NCBI GenBank assembly: GCA_026184775.1
Contig: JANCYW010000012.1
Location: forward strand, 62,001 to 126,000
Origin: Cyanidium caldarium
Taxonomy: Eukaryota > Rhodophyta > Bangiophyceae > Cyanidiales > Cyanidiaceae
Direction: 5' to 3'
DNA: 64,000 bases
Part shown: piece after piece, positions 25,735 to 45,924 of the stretch
How positions within the stretch are numbered: the stretch's first letter is position 1
Layout: each line of letters starts with the position of its first letter
Program-made: the position numbers and the translations under genes
The notes under the pieces: generated by a model
The model's database searches: none
What the model was told of the DNA's origin: nothing
What the model saw: only the letters and a program-made list of their open reading frames with translations

Positions 25735-26089
25735 GATCCGGCACCGCGTGGGCGCGCACGTAGACGCGCCCGCACAGCGCCCGAGTATATTTCAGCGTTC
25801 AGCCATCTGTCACCCATCGGGCGTCCCTCATTTGAGCGACCTGCCGACACTGCGCAAGTATGGCGGAGCGCCGACAACAACGCCAAACGCAGCGGTCGGC
25901 GCGAGGGCGCCCGGCGGTTTCGGCGACGACGACGACAACGACGACGACGACGACAACGACGACGACGACGACGACGGCGAACGAGCGGTGTGAAGACGGA
26001 ACAGGGTCCAGTTGGGGTATCGAAAAGAGCACTTTTGAGGCTGCCAGTGGAGCAGGATACTGCATCGAGTCCTATCAACCAACTCCGGC
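25735..26089. other. Intergenic with (GAC)n tract
   Basis: This 355-base spacer contains an interrupted (GAC/AAC)n tract at about 25924-25976 within 120 bp of the next start. In one frame the tract would read poly-Asp, but the surrounding frame has no protein character. Confidence 0.5.
25924..25976 (+). repeat. Interrupted (GAC)n triplet repeat
   Basis: About 53 bases of GAC repeats with two AAC interruptions lie upstream of the gene at 26090. This is the longest triplet tract in the window and is outside any supported coding region. Confidence 0.85.
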
Positions 26090-31687: not shown

Positions 31688-33262
31688 ATGCACGAGTCGC
31701 CGGGAGGCGAGCTCATCACCGTGCAAGTGGGGACGACGGCCAACTATTTCGGTGCGCACTACTGGAATCTGCTGGATGAGCAGCTGAAAGTCCCAGCGCA
31801 GGGCGAGCGTTGTCGCCTGGGTTGCCGCCGCTGGTTCCGCGAGGCCGTCGACGCCCGAGGCGCGGAACATGTGGCGCCGCGGACCATCGTATTCGATGCG
31901 CGCCCCGAATTCGGCTGCCTGACGAGTGAATCCGAGGACACTGTGTCTGCCGACGCCCATGCGGCATGGCGCGGCCACGTACAGCGGCTGGAGCTGGTGC
32001 CGTCGATGGAGAAGCACGCCTTCACCCAGAGCTTGGAGCACAGTGAGGAGGTGCTGGCGCGAGACTATCGCTTTGATGAGAGTGTCCGACACTGGAGCGA
32101 TTACCTGCAGTTGCGCCTGCCGCCGTGGGCCTTAGTGGAGGCGCCAGTGGAGTGGAAGCCATCGCACGCACCGTTGCCCCCCGAAGCGATCGTGGAACAC
32201 TTCCAGCAGGCGCGGAGCGGCAACATGGATGGCATCTCCGTCGCCGCGGACACATTGCTGGAGCGAGTGCGACGGCTGGCGGAGGAGTGTGACCAGTGGT
32301 CGGGTGTAGATGTGTTCACCAGTGCCACGTCGCCGGCCGACGCCGGTCTCACGGCGTTGCTGACGGAGCGGTTGGTGGATGAGCAAGCAGCGAAAATGCC
32401 GATCGTGGTGCGCGGGGTGGACGCGGCGTCTGAATTCCCGTTGCGGGAATGGGTGGCGCGACAATGCGGCGAGGCGCTGCTCTTCGCCGACTTGGCCACC
32501 TCCAGCACTGCCGCCGACAACGACCACCTGGTGTACGTGCCGTTGCGGAGCGCCGCGTTGGGCGATGGATGCGGCGGCCTGCTGCCGAGTCGCACCGCCA
32601 ACGTCTTTCAAAGCGCAGCGTTGCTGGCGGCAGCAGCATGTGCTCACGAGATCGGCACACCGATCGGCGGCACCGGCGTTCATGACGGCTTGCATCCGCG
32701 TTGGCCCATCAGCGGGCGACACCGCCTGATGGTGGAGTTGCGCGCCGCCATGAGCGCCGCATCGCGGCCGGGCGAGCCGTTTTCGTGGTGCCTGTCGGTG
32801 TCGCCCGCGCTGCGTCGCGACTGGCGCTGCGATCGGCGGCCGCGCGAACGCAGCCAGCATACCCGACTCGGTGATGTCGATACCGAGAATGCGGAGGATG
32901 GCGGTGAGTGGTATCGCCGCGCGCTGGCGCTGCTGAACACCGAGGCCGCACCGGCGTTGGCCACGGCCGAAACGCGAGCAACGCTGCGCCTGCCAGTGCC
33001 ATTCCCCGCATCCCTGTATGCCGTGGCCAAACCGCTGGACCACTTACGAAAGGACGTTGGACCGCAGCTGACGTTCCACACCACCTCCGAGCAGTCGCTG
33101 TGCACGGGCGCCGATATTGATGCGTGGGCCAGCCTGGTGCGGCACGCCTCGCGACTGCTGCGCCGTCCGGGCGCCGTAGTCACCGCAACGGACGCCGACT
33201 TGTTCGCCGAGGCGGACGAGCGCCTGCGCATCCTGGCAGATGCCTATATAGAGGGAACGTAG
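31688..33262 (+). CDS. DML1: Misato/DML1 tubulin-like protein
   Basis: Misato (yeast DML1, human MSTO1) is a tubulin-related protein needed for mitochondrial distribution and morphology. The 524-residue protein starts with the diagnostic ELITVQVGTTANYFGAHYWN block (VTVQxGxxxNxxGxHxWN). It continues with APRTIVFDARPEFG, a WSDYLQLRLPP segment and a long tubulin-like C-terminal region (VDVFTSATSPADAGLTALL). The tubulin GGGTGSG loop is not evident, as expected for this family. The last 19 bases overlap the 3' end of SPO11 on the other strand. Confidence 0.85.
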   Translation: MHESPGGELITVQVGTTANYFGAHYWNLLDEQLKVPAQGERCRLGCRRWFREAVDARGAEHVAPRTIVFDARPEFGCLTSESEDTVSADAHAAWRGHVQRLELVPSMEKHAFTQSLEHSEEVLARDYRFDESVRHWSDYLQLRLPPWALVEAPVEWKPSHAPLPPEAIVEHFQQARSGNMDGISVAADTLLERVRRLAEECDQWSGVDVFTSATSPADAGLTALLTERLVDEQAAKMPIVVRGVDAASEFPLREWVARQCGEALLFADLATSSTAADNDHLVYVPLRSAALGDGCGGLLPSRTANVFQSAALLAAAACAHEIGTPIGGTGVHDGLHPRWPISGRHRLMVELRAAMSAASRPGEPFSWCLSVSPALRRDWRCDRRPRERSQHTRLGDVDTENAEDGGEWYRRALALLNTEAAPALATAETRATLRLPVPFPASLYAVAKPLDHLRKDVGPQLTFHTTSEQSLCTGADIDAWASLVRHASRLLRRPGAVVTATDADLFAEADERLRILADAYIEGT

Positions 33263-34527
33263 CCTCGGCCAACGACGGCGTGTAGGCGCTCTATGACGTA
33301 TGCCACCAGGGCCTCGTCGTCGCTGAGGAACTCGGTCTCCACTTTCTCGTCGCTGTTCAGCATGCCGCACACGGTCTCGACCAGGGATGCACGCCCGGCC
33401 AGCGTCAACTGAGACCGGAGCCGTGTGGCCAACGCCCGATCACGGGCGGTAAGTGGTTTGCGCGCCTGGCCGCGATACCCACGGACGTCCTCCGGGCGTA
33501 CACCCAGGCGCGTGGCCGTCGGCCCGTACTGTTGTGAGATGGCCACGCCGTCGGGGTCGCAATCGGTGAGGGTGAGCAAGCACACGCGGTCCCGGTGCTG
33601 CAGCTGCCGCGCCACCGCCAAAGTGGCCTGGTCGGGGTATCCTCTGCCGCTGAGCAGCATCACCTCATGTCGGGCGGCGAAGGCCGTGAAACGCCGTGCA
33701 GCCGCCGATGTGGGACACACCAGCCGTCGCAGCACCGTTTCTTTCTCAATGGCCAACACCACGACCGGATGTCGGCGTTCGACCGGTGTAGCGCTTTCGA
33801 CACGGTGGCGACAGAGATGGAACGCGGCGTCCGGCGCCGCCAGTTCGCCGGGAATGCGCGGCGCGGCATCGAGCGCCACCTCGCACCGTTGCCCGCTCAG
33901 ACTGCGCCACCGCATGACATAACCGCGGGGTGCCCACACGACTCCCTTGGGCGCGGCCACGATGCCCAGTTGGTGGCGCTGTACTCCAGCACCGAGCATG
34001 ACGCACAGCCGCTGCACCGCGCGATGCACCGATGCAGCAGTCAGCGGGACGGCTTCGGGCTCTGCACCTCCCACGGCATGCGCGTGCTTCTCACAATAGT
34101 AAAGATCCCGCAGGGTGCATCGGATGGCGGCACTTCCTGTATCCGCTCGGTGTCGTCGTCGCTCCTGCTGCTGCAGCGTGTACAAGCGCGCCATCAATTG
34201 CACCGCGACCGCATTCAGCTGGCACACCGACACGCGTCGCACTCCCAGCAGCAAGTCCAGCGCCAACGCCTCTAACCTCTCGAGTGGCAATTGCATGGGC
34301 GAGATTATTTGCACGTATGCCAGTATGTGTGATGATAGGCGCGGCAACTCGCCCGTCGCCACAAAATACCGACACGCATTTCCGCCTCCCCGCCTGCGCG
34401 CGCCCACGGCCGACGATTTCGATTCGGAACACGCGGCACAAGGCAGGCCCGGCGGCGGACTTCGGTGAACGCCGGAGGGCGGTCTCGTCGCGACCAACTT
34501 GCAACCTCCATCTGGTAGTTGCTTCAC
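33244..34527 (-). CDS. SPO11: SPO11/TopoVI-A meiotic double-strand-break protein
   Basis: SPO11 makes the DNA breaks that start meiotic recombination. In the 427-residue protein the 5Y-CAP part carries the nucleophile context CTLRDLYYCEK, where family members have RDxYY. The Toprim part keeps the acidic triad: IEKE in VVVLAIEKETVLRRL, SGRGYPDQAT, and the DxDxxG signature LTLTDCDPDGVAI. The C terminus (LSDDEALVAYVIERLHAVVG) fits the family end. Length is close to human SPO11 (~400). Plant SPO11-3 (TopoVI-A, endoreduplication) is an alternative. The start is uncertain; the conserved part begins near residue 75. Confidence 0.88.
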   Translation of the reverse strand: MKQLPDGGCKLVATRPPSGVHRSPPPGLPCAACSESKSSAVGARRRGGGNACRYFVATGELPRLSSHILAYVQIISPMQLPLERLEALALDLLLGVRRVSVCQLNAVAVQLMARLYTLQQQERRRHRADTGSAAIRCTLRDLYYCEKHAHAVGGAEPEAVPLTAASVHRAVQRLCVMLGAGVQRHQLGIVAAPKGVVWAPRGYVMRWRSLSGQRCEVALDAAPRIPGELAAPDAAFHLCRHRVESATPVERRHPVVVLAIEKETVLRRLVCPTSAAARRFTAFAARHEVMLLSGRGYPDQATLAVARQLQHRDRVCLLTLTDCDPDGVAISQQYGPTATRLGVRPEDVRGYRGQARKPLTARDRALATRLRSQLTLAGRASLVETVCGMLNSDEKVETEFLSDDEALVAYVIERLHAVVGRGYVPSI

Positions 34528-34557
34528 CGGCTCCTGATGTCCACAGGAGAGGAGAGC

Positions 34558-35091
34558 ATGTGTGCCGTGCGGATATGTGCGTTTTCGGTGAATGCTTGGC
34601 TAGCGGAGGGCAGGATCCGCGGTGGGCGGATGGCGGATCTGAACGGGCGTCTGCGACGATCCGCAGCGACTGTCTATGCGGCGCCGACACGTTCCAGACC
34701 AACTGGGCATTGCACGCTGCGAATGGAGTGGAACTCGCCGCTGAGCGCGTCGGTGTCGAACAACAAGAAGGATCTGGTGCAGATCACCGTGTACGAGAAA
34801 GGCAGTTCGGAGCCGCGAGTTATTGAAGTGCCGCGAGGCGCCAACCTCCGAAAAGCGCTGTTAGAGAACAATGTGGACGTGTATACCCTGCGCGGTAAGC
34901 TGACCAACTGCGGCGGTGGCGGTCAGTGCGGCACCTGCGTGGTGGACGTGGTGGAAGGTGCCGGCTTTCTAACGCCCCGCGGTGTGCGAGAAACGCGCCT
35001 GCTAACTGACAAGGGCCGACCCGACGCGTGGCGGCTCAGCTGCTGCTTGCGCGTGGAGGGACCGGTCACCGTCCGCACCAAACCGCAGTGA
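34558..35091 (+). CDS. 2Fe-2S ferredoxin, PnsB3/NDF4-like, probably plastid
   Basis: The C-terminal ~110 residues form a plant-type ferredoxin fold (QITVYEKGSSEPRVIEVPRGANL; YTLRGKLTNCGGGGQCGTCVV; WRLSCCLRVEGPV). The cluster loop is C-x5-C-x2-C with a distant fourth Cys (SCC), unlike the C-x4-C-x2-C of photosynthetic ferredoxin. NCGGGGQCGTC and the WRLxC block match PnsB3/NDF4, an NDH-complex subunit in land plants, and its cyanobacterial relatives. Red algal plastids lack NDH, so a different role is likely if the host is red. Several Met codons (34519, 34537, 34558, 34630) could begin an Arg/Ala/Ser-rich leader. The earliest overlaps the SPO11 start by nine bases. Confidence 0.82.
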   Translation: MCAVRICAFSVNAWLAEGRIRGGRMADLNGRLRRSAATVYAAPTRSRPTGHCTLRMEWNSPLSASVSNNKKDLVQITVYEKGSSEPRVIEVPRGANLRKALLENNVDVYTLRGKLTNCGGGGQCGTCVVDVVEGAGFLTPRGVRETRLLTDKGRPDAWRLSCCLRVEGPVTVRTKPQ

Positions 35092-35752: not shown

Positions 35753-36523
35753 TTGCTCACTATGCGTTCCGGTGCTCGCGTGCTCGTTTTCGCGCTCCTG
35801 AGCGTGGTGCTGTGCGTGTTTAGCGGCGTCCACGCGGTGCACGCTCTGTCGGCATCGCCTTCGCCTTCGGTGTCGCCGTCGCCGTCCATGATGATGGGTA
35901 GCGTGATGCGCGATGCCGTGCTAGATCACGTTATGCTGCGCGTTGCCGCGTCCGCATCGCCCTCGCCGTCGCCCTCCATGATGATGGGCGCTGCGATGCG
36001 CGATGAACTCGGTCTGGATACGGTGTTGCGCGTTGCCGCGTCCGCATCGCCCTCGCCGTCGCCCTCCATGATGATGGGCGCTGCGATGGGTCTGGATACG
36101 GTGTTGCGCGTTGCCGCGTCCGCATCGCCCTCGCCGTCGCCCTCCATGATGATGGGCGCTGCGATGCGTGATGAACTCGGTCTGGATACGGTGTTGCGCG
36201 TTGCCGCGTCCGCATCGCCCTCGCCGTCGCCCTCCATGATGATGGGCACCGCGATGCGTGATGCCGTGTCTAGATCGCCCTCGCCGTCGCCCTCCATGAT
36301 GATGGGCACTGCGATGCGCGATGCCGTGCTAGATCACGTTATGCTGCGCGTTGCCGCGTCCGCATCGCCCTCGCCGTCGCCCTCCATGATGATGGGCGCT
36401 GCGATGCGTGATGAACTCGGTCTGGATACGGTGTTGCGCGTTGCCGCGTCCGCATCGCCCTCGCCGTCGCCCTCCATGATGATGGGCGCTGCGATGCGTG
36501 CCGGCTTTGAATTGGATGCGTGA
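35753..36523 (+). CDS. Secreted tandem-repeat Ser-Pro/Met protein
   Basis: The 256-residue protein opens with a clear signal peptide (MRSGARVLVFALLSVVLCVF, ending AVHALS). After that it is almost entirely a repeat: SPSPSPSMMMG, then AMRDELGLDTVLRVAASA. Eight SPSPSMMMG copies occur. Their DNA is nearly identical, with start-to-start distances of 90, 90, 78, 90, 60, 90 and 90 bp, all multiples of three, so unit loss and gain keeps the frame. A variant unit uses AVLDHVMLRVAASA. The Ser-Pro runs resemble O-glycosylated extensin or arabinogalactan motifs; the Met triplet is unusual. No known family was recognised; a wall or surface role is inferred. The start could be either the Met at 35753 or at 35762. 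Confidence 0.8.
   Translation: MLTMRSGARVLVFALLSVVLCVFSGVHAVHALSASPSPSVSPSPSMMMGSVMRDAVLDHVMLRVAASASPSPSPSMMMGAAMRDELGLDTVLRVAASASPSPSPSMMMGAAMGLDTVLRVAASASPSPSPSMMMGAAMRDELGLDTVLRVAASASPSPSPSMMMGTAMRDAVSRSPSPSPSMMMGTAMRDAVLDHVMLRVAASASPSPSPSMMMGAAMRDELGLDTVLRVAASASPSPSPSMMMGAAMRAGFELDA
35871..36500 (+). repeat. 90-bp tandem repeat array (8 copies)
   Basis: ATGATGATGGG anchors recur at 35888, 35978, 36068, 36146, 36236, 36296, 36386 and 36476. The full unit is 90 bp; 78- and 60-bp units are internal deletions. Near-perfect identity implies recent duplication or gene conversion. The opposite strand is also open across much of the array because the unit length is a multiple of three. Confidence 0.95.
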
Positions 36524-37031: not shown

Positions 37032-38084
37032 TCACCGGATGGCCTCGTATTTCGCGACAGTGGCGTCCTCAAAAGTTGGCACCGCCTTGTCGCCCGCCAC
37101 CGCAGCGTCGGTGGGGTGGCGCAACATAGCAGCGTCCACACTCGTCGGCGCCGCCTCGTCACTAATTGCCACGGCCTCGGCAGGATTGTACAATGGCCAC
37201 TCCAACAACAGCCATCGCTTCAACCCGCGCGGTAGGCGTCGATACAGCGACGGCGGCAGGGGCAGCAGCGGACTCGTCTCTCGCTTGTACTGCCGGTAGC
37301 GCGTGCGCACCTCAGGCGGTGCGGCGCTTGTGCCAAAGCGCTGATCCATCGACTTTTCCAACATGGGCAATCCGCTCACCAACAACAGCAGCAGCATCAG
37401 AAACACGGGCGACGCCACACCGGCAATCCACAGACCGGCCTCGCCATCGAACGCCGCGGTGCAGGCGATGAATACGCCCCACCACAGCAGCATCTCCCCA
37501 AAGTAGTTGGGATGACGGGAGTAACGCCACACGCCCACGGCACACCACTCGGTCGGTCGATGCTCCGCACGGCGCTGCTTGTACCGCAGCTTCTGCCCGT
37601 CGGCCACCGCTTCCAGCGCGAACCCGATCGCCCACAGCACCCAGCCGACATAGTCCGCAGCGAACAGCGCCCGTCCGGCAGATTGCGGACGCGAACCGGC
37701 GTTCAGTATGGTCACCGGCAGCGACACCGTCCACACCCACACTGCCTGAAATATCCAAAACACCGCCAGCCGCCCCAAGTTGTGGCGGGTGTCGTCGAAC
37801 CGCCGATCCTCGCCCCACAACAAAATCCGATACAGTAAAAATCCCGCCAGCCGCAACGCCCACACCACCACCAACGCCGTCACCACACACTGCCGCGCAT
37901 AATACGTGCGCGCTAGCAGAAAAGTCAACAGCGCCAGCACCGCAAAATTCGATCCCCCCGCCAGGTCGGTCACCTTGTCGAACCGCGCCGACACCGTGAC
38001 AATGAAAAACACCAGCTGATAACCGCAAGTCACCAACAGCGTTATCGCCAGGTAATTGTCGTCCAATACTGAAGTGTGCTGCAT
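37032..38084 (-). CDS. DUF1295 / steroid 5-alpha-reductase-like membrane protein
   Basis: The 350-residue polytopic protein belongs to the superfamily of sterol reductases and isoprenylcysteine methyltransferases. It shows about six hydrophobic segments (for example AITLLVTCGYQLVFFIVTV, FAVLALLTFLLARTYY). It carries the hallmark SRHPNYFGEMLLWWGVFI near residue 210, preceded by GVWRY; this is the NADPH/SAM-pocket motif of the superfamily. DUF1295 members are common in bacteria and algae and their substrate is unsettled. The C-terminal ~50 residues (after about LLEWPLYNP) are an Ala/Asp/Val low-complexity tail. The start at MQHTSVLDD is preferred to the Arg-rich extension to 38168. Confidence 0.85.
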   Translation of the reverse strand: MQHTSVLDDNYLAITLLVTCGYQLVFFIVTVSARFDKVTDLAGGSNFAVLALLTFLLARTYYARQCVVTALVVVWALRLAGFLLYRILLWGEDRRFDDTRHNLGRLAVFWIFQAVWVWTVSLPVTILNAGSRPQSAGRALFAADYVGWVLWAIGFALEAVADGQKLRYKQRRAEHRPTEWCAVGVWRYSRHPNYFGEMLLWWGVFIACTAAFDGEAGLWIAGVASPVFLMLLLLLVSGLPMLEKSMDQRFGTSAAPPEVRTRYRQYKRETSPLLPLPPSLYRRLPRGLKRWLLLEWPLYNPAEAVAISDEAAPTSVDAAMLRHPTDAAVAGDKAVPTFEDATVAKYEAIR

Positions 38085-38353
38085 CGGAACGTGAAGTGGA
38101 GGACACGAGAAGCGGTTCACTCGGGAACGGCGTCGGTGTTGCTGACGACTGCATCGCGCTGAACGCACCCGCCAGGCGATATGAGATCCGAATTCGGTGC
38201 GTGGATGCCGCTACTGTCACGCACTGCCCCATCGTTGTGTCACACAGTGGCCTCTGATGCCTCCGCGCCTTTCGGGCGCTGCGCACCCTCTCTCTCTCTG
38301 CGCGTACCGGTTGACGACCTGGGGGGTGGGCCCCGACGTCCGGCTGAAGGCGC

Positions 38354-39925
38354 ATGCTGAGCAAGTATTATACGCGGCTCCTGATATGGTCACTGGCCAG
38401 GAGCATACTGGCCTTTGCATTGCTGATAGGGTGGTACGTGCCAGACGACATGGCCGCGAGCGGTGAGGGCGATCGCGGCGCTGCGGGTGCGTGCCCGATG
38501 GGCGGTCGCCAGCTGGTGGGCGGGCGAACGTTGCTGGAGGTGCCGGCGCGTCCGTTGCTGTACTCACTCAACGTTTCCCAGACGCTGGATGCGATTCCTG
38601 ATTTTCTGGTGGCGCAGTATCGCCAGTTCGATTTCCTATGGCTGCAGGGGGTGTGGAAGTTGGGCACGTACGGGTTGTCGCTCGATCGCACCGACCCCAA
38701 GCGCGTCGCCTCGTACAACGACGCGCTGCCGGGCTGGACGAAAGACGACGTTATCGGATCGCCGTACGCCATTTACGACTATGTGGTGAGTGAGGCCATC
38801 GGCGGCGAGTCGGCGTTGCGGCGGTTTCGCCAGCGCATCCGGCCGGCGCGCCTGCTGCTGGATTTCGTGCCCAACCACATGGCACGCGACTGCCCGTGGC
38901 CAGAGACGTACTTTGTGCACACCAGCGGGCCGCAGCCGCCTGCAGTGAATGCCACCACTACCTTTCCCATTCGCGCGTACGGACGCGATCCGTACACCGG
39001 CGCCTGGGACGACACCGCCCAGCTCAACTACTTTAACCTGGCCACGCGACGACACCAGACTCGCACGCTGCTACACATCGCCAGCATGTGCGACGGCGTG
39101 CGCGCCGACATGGCCATGCTGGCGCTCAACGAGGTATTCCAGCGCGTCTGGGGCGACAATGCCGAGGTCGGCGCGTTTCCGCGACCACACACCGAGTTTT
39201 GGAGCGAGGCCGTCCACGCCCTGCGGCAACAGCATCCGCAATTCTTCCTGCTGGCGGAAGTGTATTGGGGTTTGGATGGCCGTCTGCAGGAGCTCGGCTT
39301 CGATTGCACCTACGATAAGCAGCTGTACGACTTGCTGCACGCTCGCCACCTGGACAACTTGCGCGCCTACATAGCCTCCCGATCACAGGAGCAGCATGCT
39401 CACGGGGCGCATTTCGTGGAGAACCACGACGAGCCGCGCGCCATCGCCTACTTTGGCGGGGTGCCGGTGGCCAATGCGGCTGCGGCCTTTTCGTATCTGT
39501 TGCCCGGCCTGCGTTTCCAGTTTGACGGACAGGAGCAGGGGCGCGCCGCCCGCTTGGAGGTGCACCTGCGGCGCGCGGCCGACGACGATCGGCCGCCCGA
39601 TCCGCAAGTGCAGTCTTTCTACCGGCGCCTGAACCGTATCTTGGCGTTGGACATCGTGCGCAACGGTATCTGGGCGTACGACGATAGCGGCGCCCGGCAG
39701 CACTGGCGCCTCATTACCTGGACGTGGCGAGCGCGTAACTGCAGCGCCGAACCGAATGGCTCGGGCGATTTCCGACGACTGCAGGTGGTCATCAACTACA
39801 GCGACGAACCGGTGCAGTATGTGCACGCCTACACCGAGGAATTGCTCAGCAGCAACAGCAGCAGCAACAACAACGCCTCCCAGATCATCGAGGCGTGGGG
39901 CGTACGCGTCTTTAGAGCGGCATAA
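38354..39925 (+). CDS. GH13 alpha-amylase family glycoside hydrolase, N-terminal anchor
   Basis: The 523-residue protein begins with a single hydrophobic helix (SLARSILAFALLIGWYV), a signal anchor or uncleaved signal. All GH13 sites are intact: region I DFVPNHMA, region II GVRADMAML (Asp nucleophile), region III LLAEVYWG (Glu acid/base), region IV ENHDEPR. The blocks VWKLGTYG, GSPYAIYDYVV, ALRRFRQRI and LGFDCTYDKQLYDLL resemble a bacterial GH13 group more than plastid or secreted plant amylases. A C-terminal beta domain is present but short, ending in an Asn/Ser run. Acquisition from bacteria is a reasonable inference. The substrate is likely an alpha-1,4-glucan or small glucoside; specificity is not deducible. 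Confidence 0.9.
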   Translation: MLSKYYTRLLIWSLARSILAFALLIGWYVPDDMAASGEGDRGAAGACPMGGRQLVGGRTLLEVPARPLLYSLNVSQTLDAIPDFLVAQYRQFDFLWLQGVWKLGTYGLSLDRTDPKRVASYNDALPGWTKDDVIGSPYAIYDYVVSEAIGGESALRRFRQRIRPARLLLDFVPNHMARDCPWPETYFVHTSGPQPPAVNATTTFPIRAYGRDPYTGAWDDTAQLNYFNLATRRHQTRTLLHIASMCDGVRADMAMLALNEVFQRVWGDNAEVGAFPRPHTEFWSEAVHALRQQHPQFFLLAEVYWGLDGRLQELGFDCTYDKQLYDLLHARHLDNLRAYIASRSQEQHAHGAHFVENHDEPRAIAYFGGVPVANAAAAFSYLLPGLRFQFDGQEQGRAARLEVHLRRAADDDRPPDPQVQSFYRRLNRILALDIVRNGIWAYDDSGARQHWRLITWTWRARNCSAEPNGSGDFRRLQVVINYSDEPVQYVHAYTEELLSSNSSSNNNASQIIEAWGVRVFRAA

Positions 39926-43652: not shown

Positions 43653-43851
43653 AGTCGAGCTGCTGCAGTGCCCCGAGACGTGCCGTATATTGCGGATGAA
43701 AGTGGGGTACTCGATCGAGTCGCCGTGCCTGACGGTGCCCCTCGCCGCGCTGGTGTCGAACCCGTGCAAGCGACCTGACCGTCGCCGGAAGCGCGTCCGT
43801 CGGACGGAGCGGTGCCGCGCGTGAGACGCTCCTCTCGATGAACTGCCTGCC

Positions 43852-43875
43852 TGCGTGCGTGCGTGCGTGCGTGTG
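43852..43875 (+). repeat. (TGCG)n tetranucleotide repeat
   Basis: A short TGCG/TGTG tract lies between EBP2 and the small membrane protein gene. Confidence 0.8.
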
Positions 43876-43921
43876 TGCGGAAACGAGTGCGTCCACACAA
43901 AAATGCAGTTGACGTCGAGAT

Positions 43922-45471: not shown

Positions 45472-45924
45472 CACCGACGCAGCACGCCCACAAACGTCTC
45501 CTCGCCGAACCGCGCCCACGCTCCCCACGTCTCCGTCCAGACCGACACCCCCGCCGCCGATGGCTTGCGCGAGCGCCCCACTCCAATGACCCCAACACTC
45601 AGTACGCCTTCCGTCCCAATCCGTGATCACCCCACACCGCGCCAACAACAACCACAACCACAACACCCAATCACCTCCCCGTCCACTGGTAACCGAGCCC
45701 GCAGCCGCCACGACCACCCGCACGCCTGCGTCCACCGCGCCTGCCCTCCGCGTTTCGTCGCCAGCCGTGGCGGACGCCGCGATCGATCGATCGATCGATC
45801 GATCCAAATCGAAATCGAAAGCGCGTCGGGCGGCGGCGCATTTGAAACGCGACGCGACGGAAAACCGTTTTTCGGTCGGGCGCACGGAAGGTGAGTGTGA
45901 TCGGTGGGGACGCGGCAGGGCAGG
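45472..45924. other. Divergent promoter with (GATC)6
   Basis: This 453-base spacer lies between the divergent beta-barrel-like gene and EXO1, with a perfect (GATC)6 tract at 45781-45804 followed by AAATCGAAATCGAAA. Confidence 0.6.
45781..45804 (+). repeat. (GATC)6 tetranucleotide repeat
   Basis: Six perfect GATC units, each self-complementary, lie about 120 bp upstream of the EXO1 start. A shorter CGATCGATCGAT run occurs just after the GH13 stop near 39931. Confidence 0.95.

Follow-up and report, generated by a model that had tools for sequence, protein, structure and literature searches.

A methionine-rich Ser-Pro tandem-repeat gene of Cyanidium caldarium and its possible place among cell-surface proteins

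The genome of Cyanidium caldarium, a red alga of acid hot springs (8,787,356 bases in 20 contigs), contains a tandem array of units rich in Ser-Pro dipeptides and methionine triplets, which raises the question of whether the array is a gene at all and, if so, what kind of protein it would encode. The window analysed is a stretch of 64,000 nucleotides (C12:62001-126000), to which all coordinates refer unless another contig is named; the array lies at 98 kb of this 408-kb contig. The preliminary description had placed an open reading frame (ORF) at 35753-36523. The frame exists and its stop codon ends at 36523, but it opens with TTG; the earliest ATG stands at 35762 and is most likely the translation start, giving a product of 253 amino acids (aa). 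A scan for bacterial promoters, which is irrelevant to a eukaryote, returned no promoter-like sites and one terminator-like site against 0.8 expected. The gene and its parts are as follows.

35762..36523, plus strand: Ser-Pro/Met tandem-repeat protein with a signal-like leader, an uninterrupted ORF of 253 codons and a stop
35762..35845, plus strand: signal-peptide-like leader (MRSGARVLVFALLSVVLCVFSGVHAVHA) with a hydrophobic core and a predicted cleavage site
35846..35887, plus strand: first, diverged Ser-Pro stretch (LSASPSPSVSPSPS)
35888..35977, plus strand: unit 1, class B (MMMGSVMRDAVLDHVMLRVAASASPSPSPS), 90 bp
35978..36067, plus strand: unit 2, class A (MMMGAAMRDELGLDTVLRVAASASPSPSPS), 90 bp
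36068..36145, plus strand: unit 3, class A without RDEL (-12 bp), 78 bp
36146..36235, plus strand: unit 4, class A, 90 bp, same sequence as unit 7
36236..36295, plus strand: unit 5, 60 bp, a class B unit shortened by a net 30 bp through a 31-bp deletion and a 1-bp insertion
36296..36385, plus strand: unit 6, class B, 90 bp
36386..36475, plus strand: unit 7, class A, 90 bp
36476..36523, plus strand: unit 8, truncated: MMMGAAM, then the C-terminal tail RAGFELDA and the stop

The leader has its hydrophobic core at residues 7-17, with a mean Kyte-Doolittle value of 3.25, and carries V-x-A sites after residues 25 and 28, which fit the -3,-1 rule for signal-peptide cleavage. Both features support the signal peptide suggested in the preliminary description, and the leader appears signal-like. 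Assuming a cut after residue 28, the mature part has 225 residues. The MMMG motif occurs eight times (residues 43, 73, 103, 129, 159, 179, 209 and 239), with spacings of 90, 90, 78, 90, 60, 90 and 90 bp, all seven of them multiples of three. These positions and spacings confirm the eight SPSPS-MMMG units with frame-keeping sizes of 90, 78 and 60 bp that had been described. Tandem Repeats Finder reports the array as seven overlapping rows with periods of 60-240 and a best score of 767. The description of the 90-bp units as near-identical holds within two classes but not between them: the full class A units (2, 4 and 7) are 98.9-100% identical, with units 4 and 7 exactly alike, and the full class B units (1 and 6) are 95.6% identical, whereas A and B share 74.4-80.0% identity over 90 ungapped bases. 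The units run B A A' A B' B A end along the array, and this mixed order, together with the near-identity within classes, would fit repeated duplication or conversion. In unit 5, the 31-bp deletion sits between two ATC triplets. Taken singly, the deletion leads to a stop after 20 residues and the insertion to a stop after 38; jointly they keep the frame, and both lie within a few bases, so the pair may have arisen in one complex event, with a 1-in-3 chance of being in frame. As seen in this one genome, the identity of units 4 and 7, the 12-bp and net 30-bp deletions and the mixed A/B order are consistent with the ongoing expansion and contraction that had been proposed.

The coding frame is the only frame open across the array. 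Between 35860 and 36516 it has no stop codon, the other five frames have 9, 19, 2, 3 and 2, and leader and array share a single frame that starts with ATG. Codon usage was compared with that of the 27 window ORFs of at least 300 aa (13,736 codons), which were picked by length and not by homology, using a null based on base composition alone. The synonymous-codon score of the whole ORF is +22.0, against a null of -49.1 +/- 12.2 (500 draws). Because the units are copies of each other, the test was repeated with each unit type counted once: the non-redundant concatenation of leader, one B unit, one A unit and tail (117 codons) scores +13.9 against a null of -24.0 +/- 8.6, and none of 2,000 draws reaches this score. 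The codon usage of the repeat ORF thus resembles that of the long ORFs of the window, and frame and codon signal together are more than chance. In the 17 codons that are homologous across the eight units, 4, 4 and 7 variable sites fall on the first, second and third codon positions, a mild third-position excess that is not a strong test.

The composition of the predicted mature protein is strongly biased. Ser (43 residues, 19.1%), Ala (36, 16.0%), Met (34, 15.1%) and Pro (25, 11.1%) dominate, there are 6 Thr and only 2 His, and Lys, Cys, Tyr, Trp, Asn, Gln and Ile do not occur; Lys and Tyr are lacking from the whole protein, leader included. The Met content compares with 1.97% in the 27 window ORFs. 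All eight units contain MMMGxxM, in which the Met triplet, the Gly and the fourth Met are invariant and the two residues between vary (S/A/T and V/A). The calculated charge of the mature part is about +17 at pH 1-2 and -3 at pH 7. Since there is no Asn, there is no N-glycan site, and since there is no Lys, lysyl oxidase could not cross-link the protein. The C-terminal tail, AAMRAGFELDA, has no hydrophobic stretch of the GPI type. A single-sequence AlphaFold2 model (mean pLDDT 52.2, pTM 0.25) places helices between the Ser-Pro stretches, to which almost no weight can be given. An amphipathic-helix linker is not supported: the segments are not more amphipathic than shuffled versions, of which 1,554 and 3,929 out of 5,000 reach the observed value.

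Four neighbouring genes were examined, and none hints at a function for the repeat gene.

33244-34527, minus strand: TOP6A/Spo11-type ORF
34519-35091, plus strand: 2Fe-2S ferredoxin-like ORF
37032-38168, minus strand: DUF1295 protein
38354-39925, plus strand: alpha-amylase-family ORF

Other short repeats in the window include a run of 19 CGA triplets at 25924-25980 (88% matches) and repeats of TGCG at 43844-43879 and of CGAT at 45780-45804.

Searches for relatives were negative at every level. Against about 5.8 billion proteins, neither the whole protein (7,992 candidates scored) nor its 96-aa N-terminal part (874 candidates scored) found anything at E <= 10. As a control, the neighbouring DUF1295 protein was searched and returned a 94% match to a protein of 350 aa on a contig of 108,866 bases (P0002) and a 64% match to another (P0003). 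The 94% match means that the database includes a close, Cyanidium-like genome, which makes the miss of the repeat protein informative, although not decisive: the gene may lack a prediction there, or its length may fall outside the range of the candidates. Among viral contigs and prokaryote genomes, 3 and 43 pattern matches were obtained, respectively, and none was confirmed. No Pfam family and no PDB entry matched the repeat protein, and the two NCBIfam entries listed (best E 0.16) were far below the cut-off. With the families, the structures and the protein database negative and nothing meaningful in NCBIfam, the preliminary statement that a Met triplet inside a Ser-Pro motif could not be matched to a known extensin, arabinogalactan or silaffin family was borne out. 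A literature search found no description of a methionine-rich SPSPS tandem-repeat secreted wall protein. DNA and protein searches of the alga's own genome, with the best candidates scored, found this locus only, and no second array in or out of frame. Pro-[S/T/C/W]-MMM as a pattern occurs 11 times in the genome, eight of them within the array; two on C19 read P-T-MMM and P-C-MMM, and the one on C11 lies on the strand opposite a different ORF, where that ORF encodes IIMDGN. A wider [S/T/C/W]P pattern is noisy, with at least 159 forward and at least 87 reverse matches against at least 34 and at least 61 for a backward control; of these matches, the cluster on C1 was followed further. At the depth of the collections searched, the repeat gene is apparently a single-copy orphan.

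The genome was then read for the enzymes that could modify such a protein. Extensins and arabinogalactan proteins (AGPs) need hydroxyproline (Hyp). PF13640 and PF13661 have one match each, both in the same protein, which is of the TPA1/Ofd1 type, carries Ofd1_CTDD and matches yeast TPA1, which is known to be non-secretory; each of the two families was matched in 2 of 14 control genomes, and a divergent plant-type enzyme could be missed. PF01762 has no match in the genome and likewise none in the control genomes, so this search is uninformative. PF02366 has three matches, two in proteins with PMT and PMT_4TMC above the cut-off and the third with PMT_2 only.

C4, L043:466-2562, minus strand: TPA1/Ofd1-type protein, with the only PF13640 and the only PF13661 match
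C14, L044:700-2424, minus strand: PMT-type protein, PMT and PMT_4TMC, no MIR match at E <= 0.001
C14, L045:1177-2949, plus strand: PMT-type protein less than 10 kb from the contig end, PMT and PMT_4TMC, no MIR match at E <= 0.001

In L044 and L045 about 33 residues lie between the PMT and PMT_4TMC domains, and L044 matches four solved protein O-mannosyltransferase sequences in the PDB. Without a MIR domain, they may use substrates differently from the fungal enzymes. On C15, a 792-aa protein (L046:1036-3414, plus strand) has PMT_2 as its sole Pfam domain at E <= 0.001, and the same contig holds the sole MIR match found in the genome (L055), in a search that matched none of the 14 control genomes. 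Two GT39 sequences are reported for Galdieria and one for C. merolae (PMC3797821), and the present genome adds two PMT-type proteins to this red-algal tally. The presence of two protein O-mannosyltransferases makes Ser O-mannosylation of the repeat protein likelier, and O-mannosylation of the Ser-rich stretches would be the most economical guess. Of the properties looked for in a PMT substrate, a hydrophobic leader, 43 Ser and 6 Thr among 225 residues and PMT enzymes in the genome were all found.

Published work offers a setting for such a protein. Protein is reported to make up 50-55% of the wall in a strain that goes by the name Cyanidium but is of uncertain identity, and of the secretory-protein genes 35-50% differ between walled diploid and wall-less haploid cells (PMC13353863, PMC6508830); cellulose synthase has been lost (PMC13353863). 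A 34-kDa protein of the culture medium is a lysyl oxidase (PMC6508830), from a strain since moved to Cyanidiococcus (PMC13353863). The present genome has four FAS1 matches adjoining on C1 and two lysyl-oxidase matches adjoining on C16, and the same tandem copy numbers are printed for Cyanidium caldarium (PMC13353863). One of the four tandem FAS1 ORFs (C1, L052:1438-2184, minus strand) has a Lys-bearing repeat tail of the FQPVVTKTVQPIVTK type, which is plausibly a lysyl-oxidase substrate, unlike the Ser-Pro/Met protein. The latter is encoded in the same genome as these secretory proteins, but it has neither a FAS1 match nor Lys and would not be a substrate of the oxidase. Also on C1, an ORF of 2,176 aa (L051:860-7390, plus strand) combines a hydrophobic stretch near its N terminus with long (TP)n tracts and a later transmembrane-like stretch, and is a probable giant surface protein. 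Thr/Pro/Ala-rich linkers occur in the kelch-trefoil proteins of Cyanidiales (PMC9812998); they share with the present repeats the lineage, the richness in Pro and the variable length, but they lie between domains and belong to subtelomeric gene families (PMC9812998), whereas the Ser-Pro/Met protein is the product of a single gene and has no domain match.

Several explanations of these data can be weighed. Because His and carboxylates are protonated, and hence poor ligands, at pH 1-3, the MMMGxxM motif with its four thioethers could serve as an acid-proof sponge for soft metals such as Cu(I) and Ag(I), or for oxidants; the Ser-Pro stretches would be spacers, copy number would set the capacity, and Met might be oxidised instead of other targets. 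We consider this possible but rather unlikely. The 34 Met among 225 mature residues, the invariance of the Met triplet, Gly and fourth Met in all eight units and the presence of only 2 His and no Cys speak for it, and the ligand set is chemically sensible for an alga living at pH 1-3. However, most of the copper in aerated acid water is Cu(II), which Met binds poorly. The Met codons could also be a copied ATG triplet, recent copying of a single unit would explain the invariance equally, and no metal-related gene is found among the four neighbours examined, save the 2Fe-2S ferredoxin-like ORF. Precedents exist in a Ctr1 peptide, from which Cu(II) is released at pH 3.5, whereas its Met-only sites still bind Cu(I) and Ag(I) (PMC9117721), and in a Met-rich domain described as possibly a "copper sponge", with three-Met sites favouring Cu(I) (PMC11840665), and the habitat is rich in heavy metals (PMC9812998). 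The CueO Met-rich domain and the Ctr1 N-terminus resemble our protein in their clustered Met, at least three to a motif, but no sequence match was found, the repeats make up the whole protein, which has no Cys and hardly any His, and metal binding is putative. In its fullest form, a secreted, expandable thioether polymer whose eight MMMGxxM motifs on Ser-Pro spacers would neutralise oxidants or capture Cu(I), Ag(I) and other soft metals at pH 1-3, with repeat number tuning the capacity between strains, the proposal is by analogy conceivable, and we hold it to be unlikely. A precursor of repeated secreted peptides, cut at a site that most units share, for example after Arg in LR|VAASA, is improbable to a high degree. 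Repeat-type pheromone and fungal RiPP precursors do release near-identical peptides, and the signal-like leader, the eight near-identical units and the conserved Arg residues would suit such a precursor; but the protein contains no KR, RR or PR and hence no Kex2-type dibasic site, units 5 and 8 lack LRVAASA, so that some units are without the putative site, and none of the four neighbours examined is a biosynthesis-type gene.

The plant-type hydroxyproline-rich glycoproteins share with the repeat protein the Ser-Pro dipeptides, the secretion-type leader and the repetitiveness. Extensin Tyr forms isodityrosine cross-links, and an AGP has an AP/SP/TP-rich region and a C-terminal GPI signal, although some AGPs have no anchor. 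The present protein is SP-rich, as an AGP would be, but its tail lacks a hydrophobic stretch, and against the repeated SPPP(P) motif of extensins (PMC3797821) it has no PP, and hence no SPPP, no PPP and no Tyr, while PF13640 and PF13661 revealed no secretory prolyl hydroxylase. With the TPA1/Ofd1-type protein as the sole match of these two families and two PMTs present, the earlier idea of a plant-type Hyp-glycoprotein is weakened, and we regard an extensin or AGP as the least probable of the readings considered here. SPPP sequences nevertheless date back to Rhodophyta, and members of GT77, the family of the extensin arabinosyltransferases, occur in the analysed algae, where those of red algae fall into GT77D, a clade whose activity is unknown (PMC3797821); both weigh against a firm exclusion of the hydroxyproline route. 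Readings as a silaffin-like protein or as a protein cross-linked by lysyl oxidase were rejected, since they fail on the absence of Lys, even though the genome has two lysyl-oxidase matches. Silaffins are built from Lys-rich repeats that carry polyamines. Finally, the array might not be a functional gene but a satellite open in one frame by chance, or an untranscribed relic. The lack of any homologue or family would agree with this, whereas the shared ATG frame, the codon use like that of the long ORFs, the frame-keeping size changes and, at the sensitivity of the genome DNA search, the lack of any further array, whatever its frame, argue against it, and we judge it quite improbable.

The best explanation, to which we give about an even chance, is a lineage-restricted gene of Cyanidium caldarium for a secreted, low-complexity, mucin-like protein of the wall or extracellular matrix. 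It draws on the single ATG frame, the codon usage, the spacings in multiples of three, the composition, the PMT genes, the published wall setting and the TP-repeat ORF; against it stand the lack of relatives in the collections searched, the poor helix model, the possible origin of both unit 5 indels in one event, the identity of the 34-kDa medium protein as a lysyl oxidase and the PMTs without MIR. The leader would direct the protein into the endoplasmic reticulum. The (SP)n stretches would form stiff, Ser-rich spacers, probably O-mannosylated by the two PMT-type enzymes of the genome, and the Met/Ala/Leu/Val-rich segments that alternate with them may be helical, as is very weakly indicated. 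Slippage or unequal crossing-over between near-identical units would alter their number, with only frame-keeping changes retained, as the unit structure suggests. In the wall, a Lys-free protein without lysyl-oxidase cross-links could act as a filler, spacer or coat. Fungal-type O-mannosylated wall and mucin-like proteins, which are rich in Ser and Thr, have the same secretion-type leader, unequal Ser-rich tandem repeats and PMT-type enzymes in the genome; the Ser-Pro/Met protein differs from them in showing no sequence relation in the searches made, in being Met-rich, in having no GPI-type tail and in the lack of a MIR match in the PMTs. It is probably a fast-changing cell-surface protein, and the gene is unusual in its Met clusters and ordinary in kind.

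Few components of the protein-rich wall of Cyanidium are named in the papers cited here. A Lys-free, Met-rich secreted protein, in a genome with O-mannosyltransferases in which no secretory prolyl hydroxylase was found, would suggest a route to Ser-Pro surface proteins that is fungal- or animal-like and not that of green plants. If the Met clusters do bind soft metals at pH 2, they would represent a simple design for extracellular metal handling in extreme acid.
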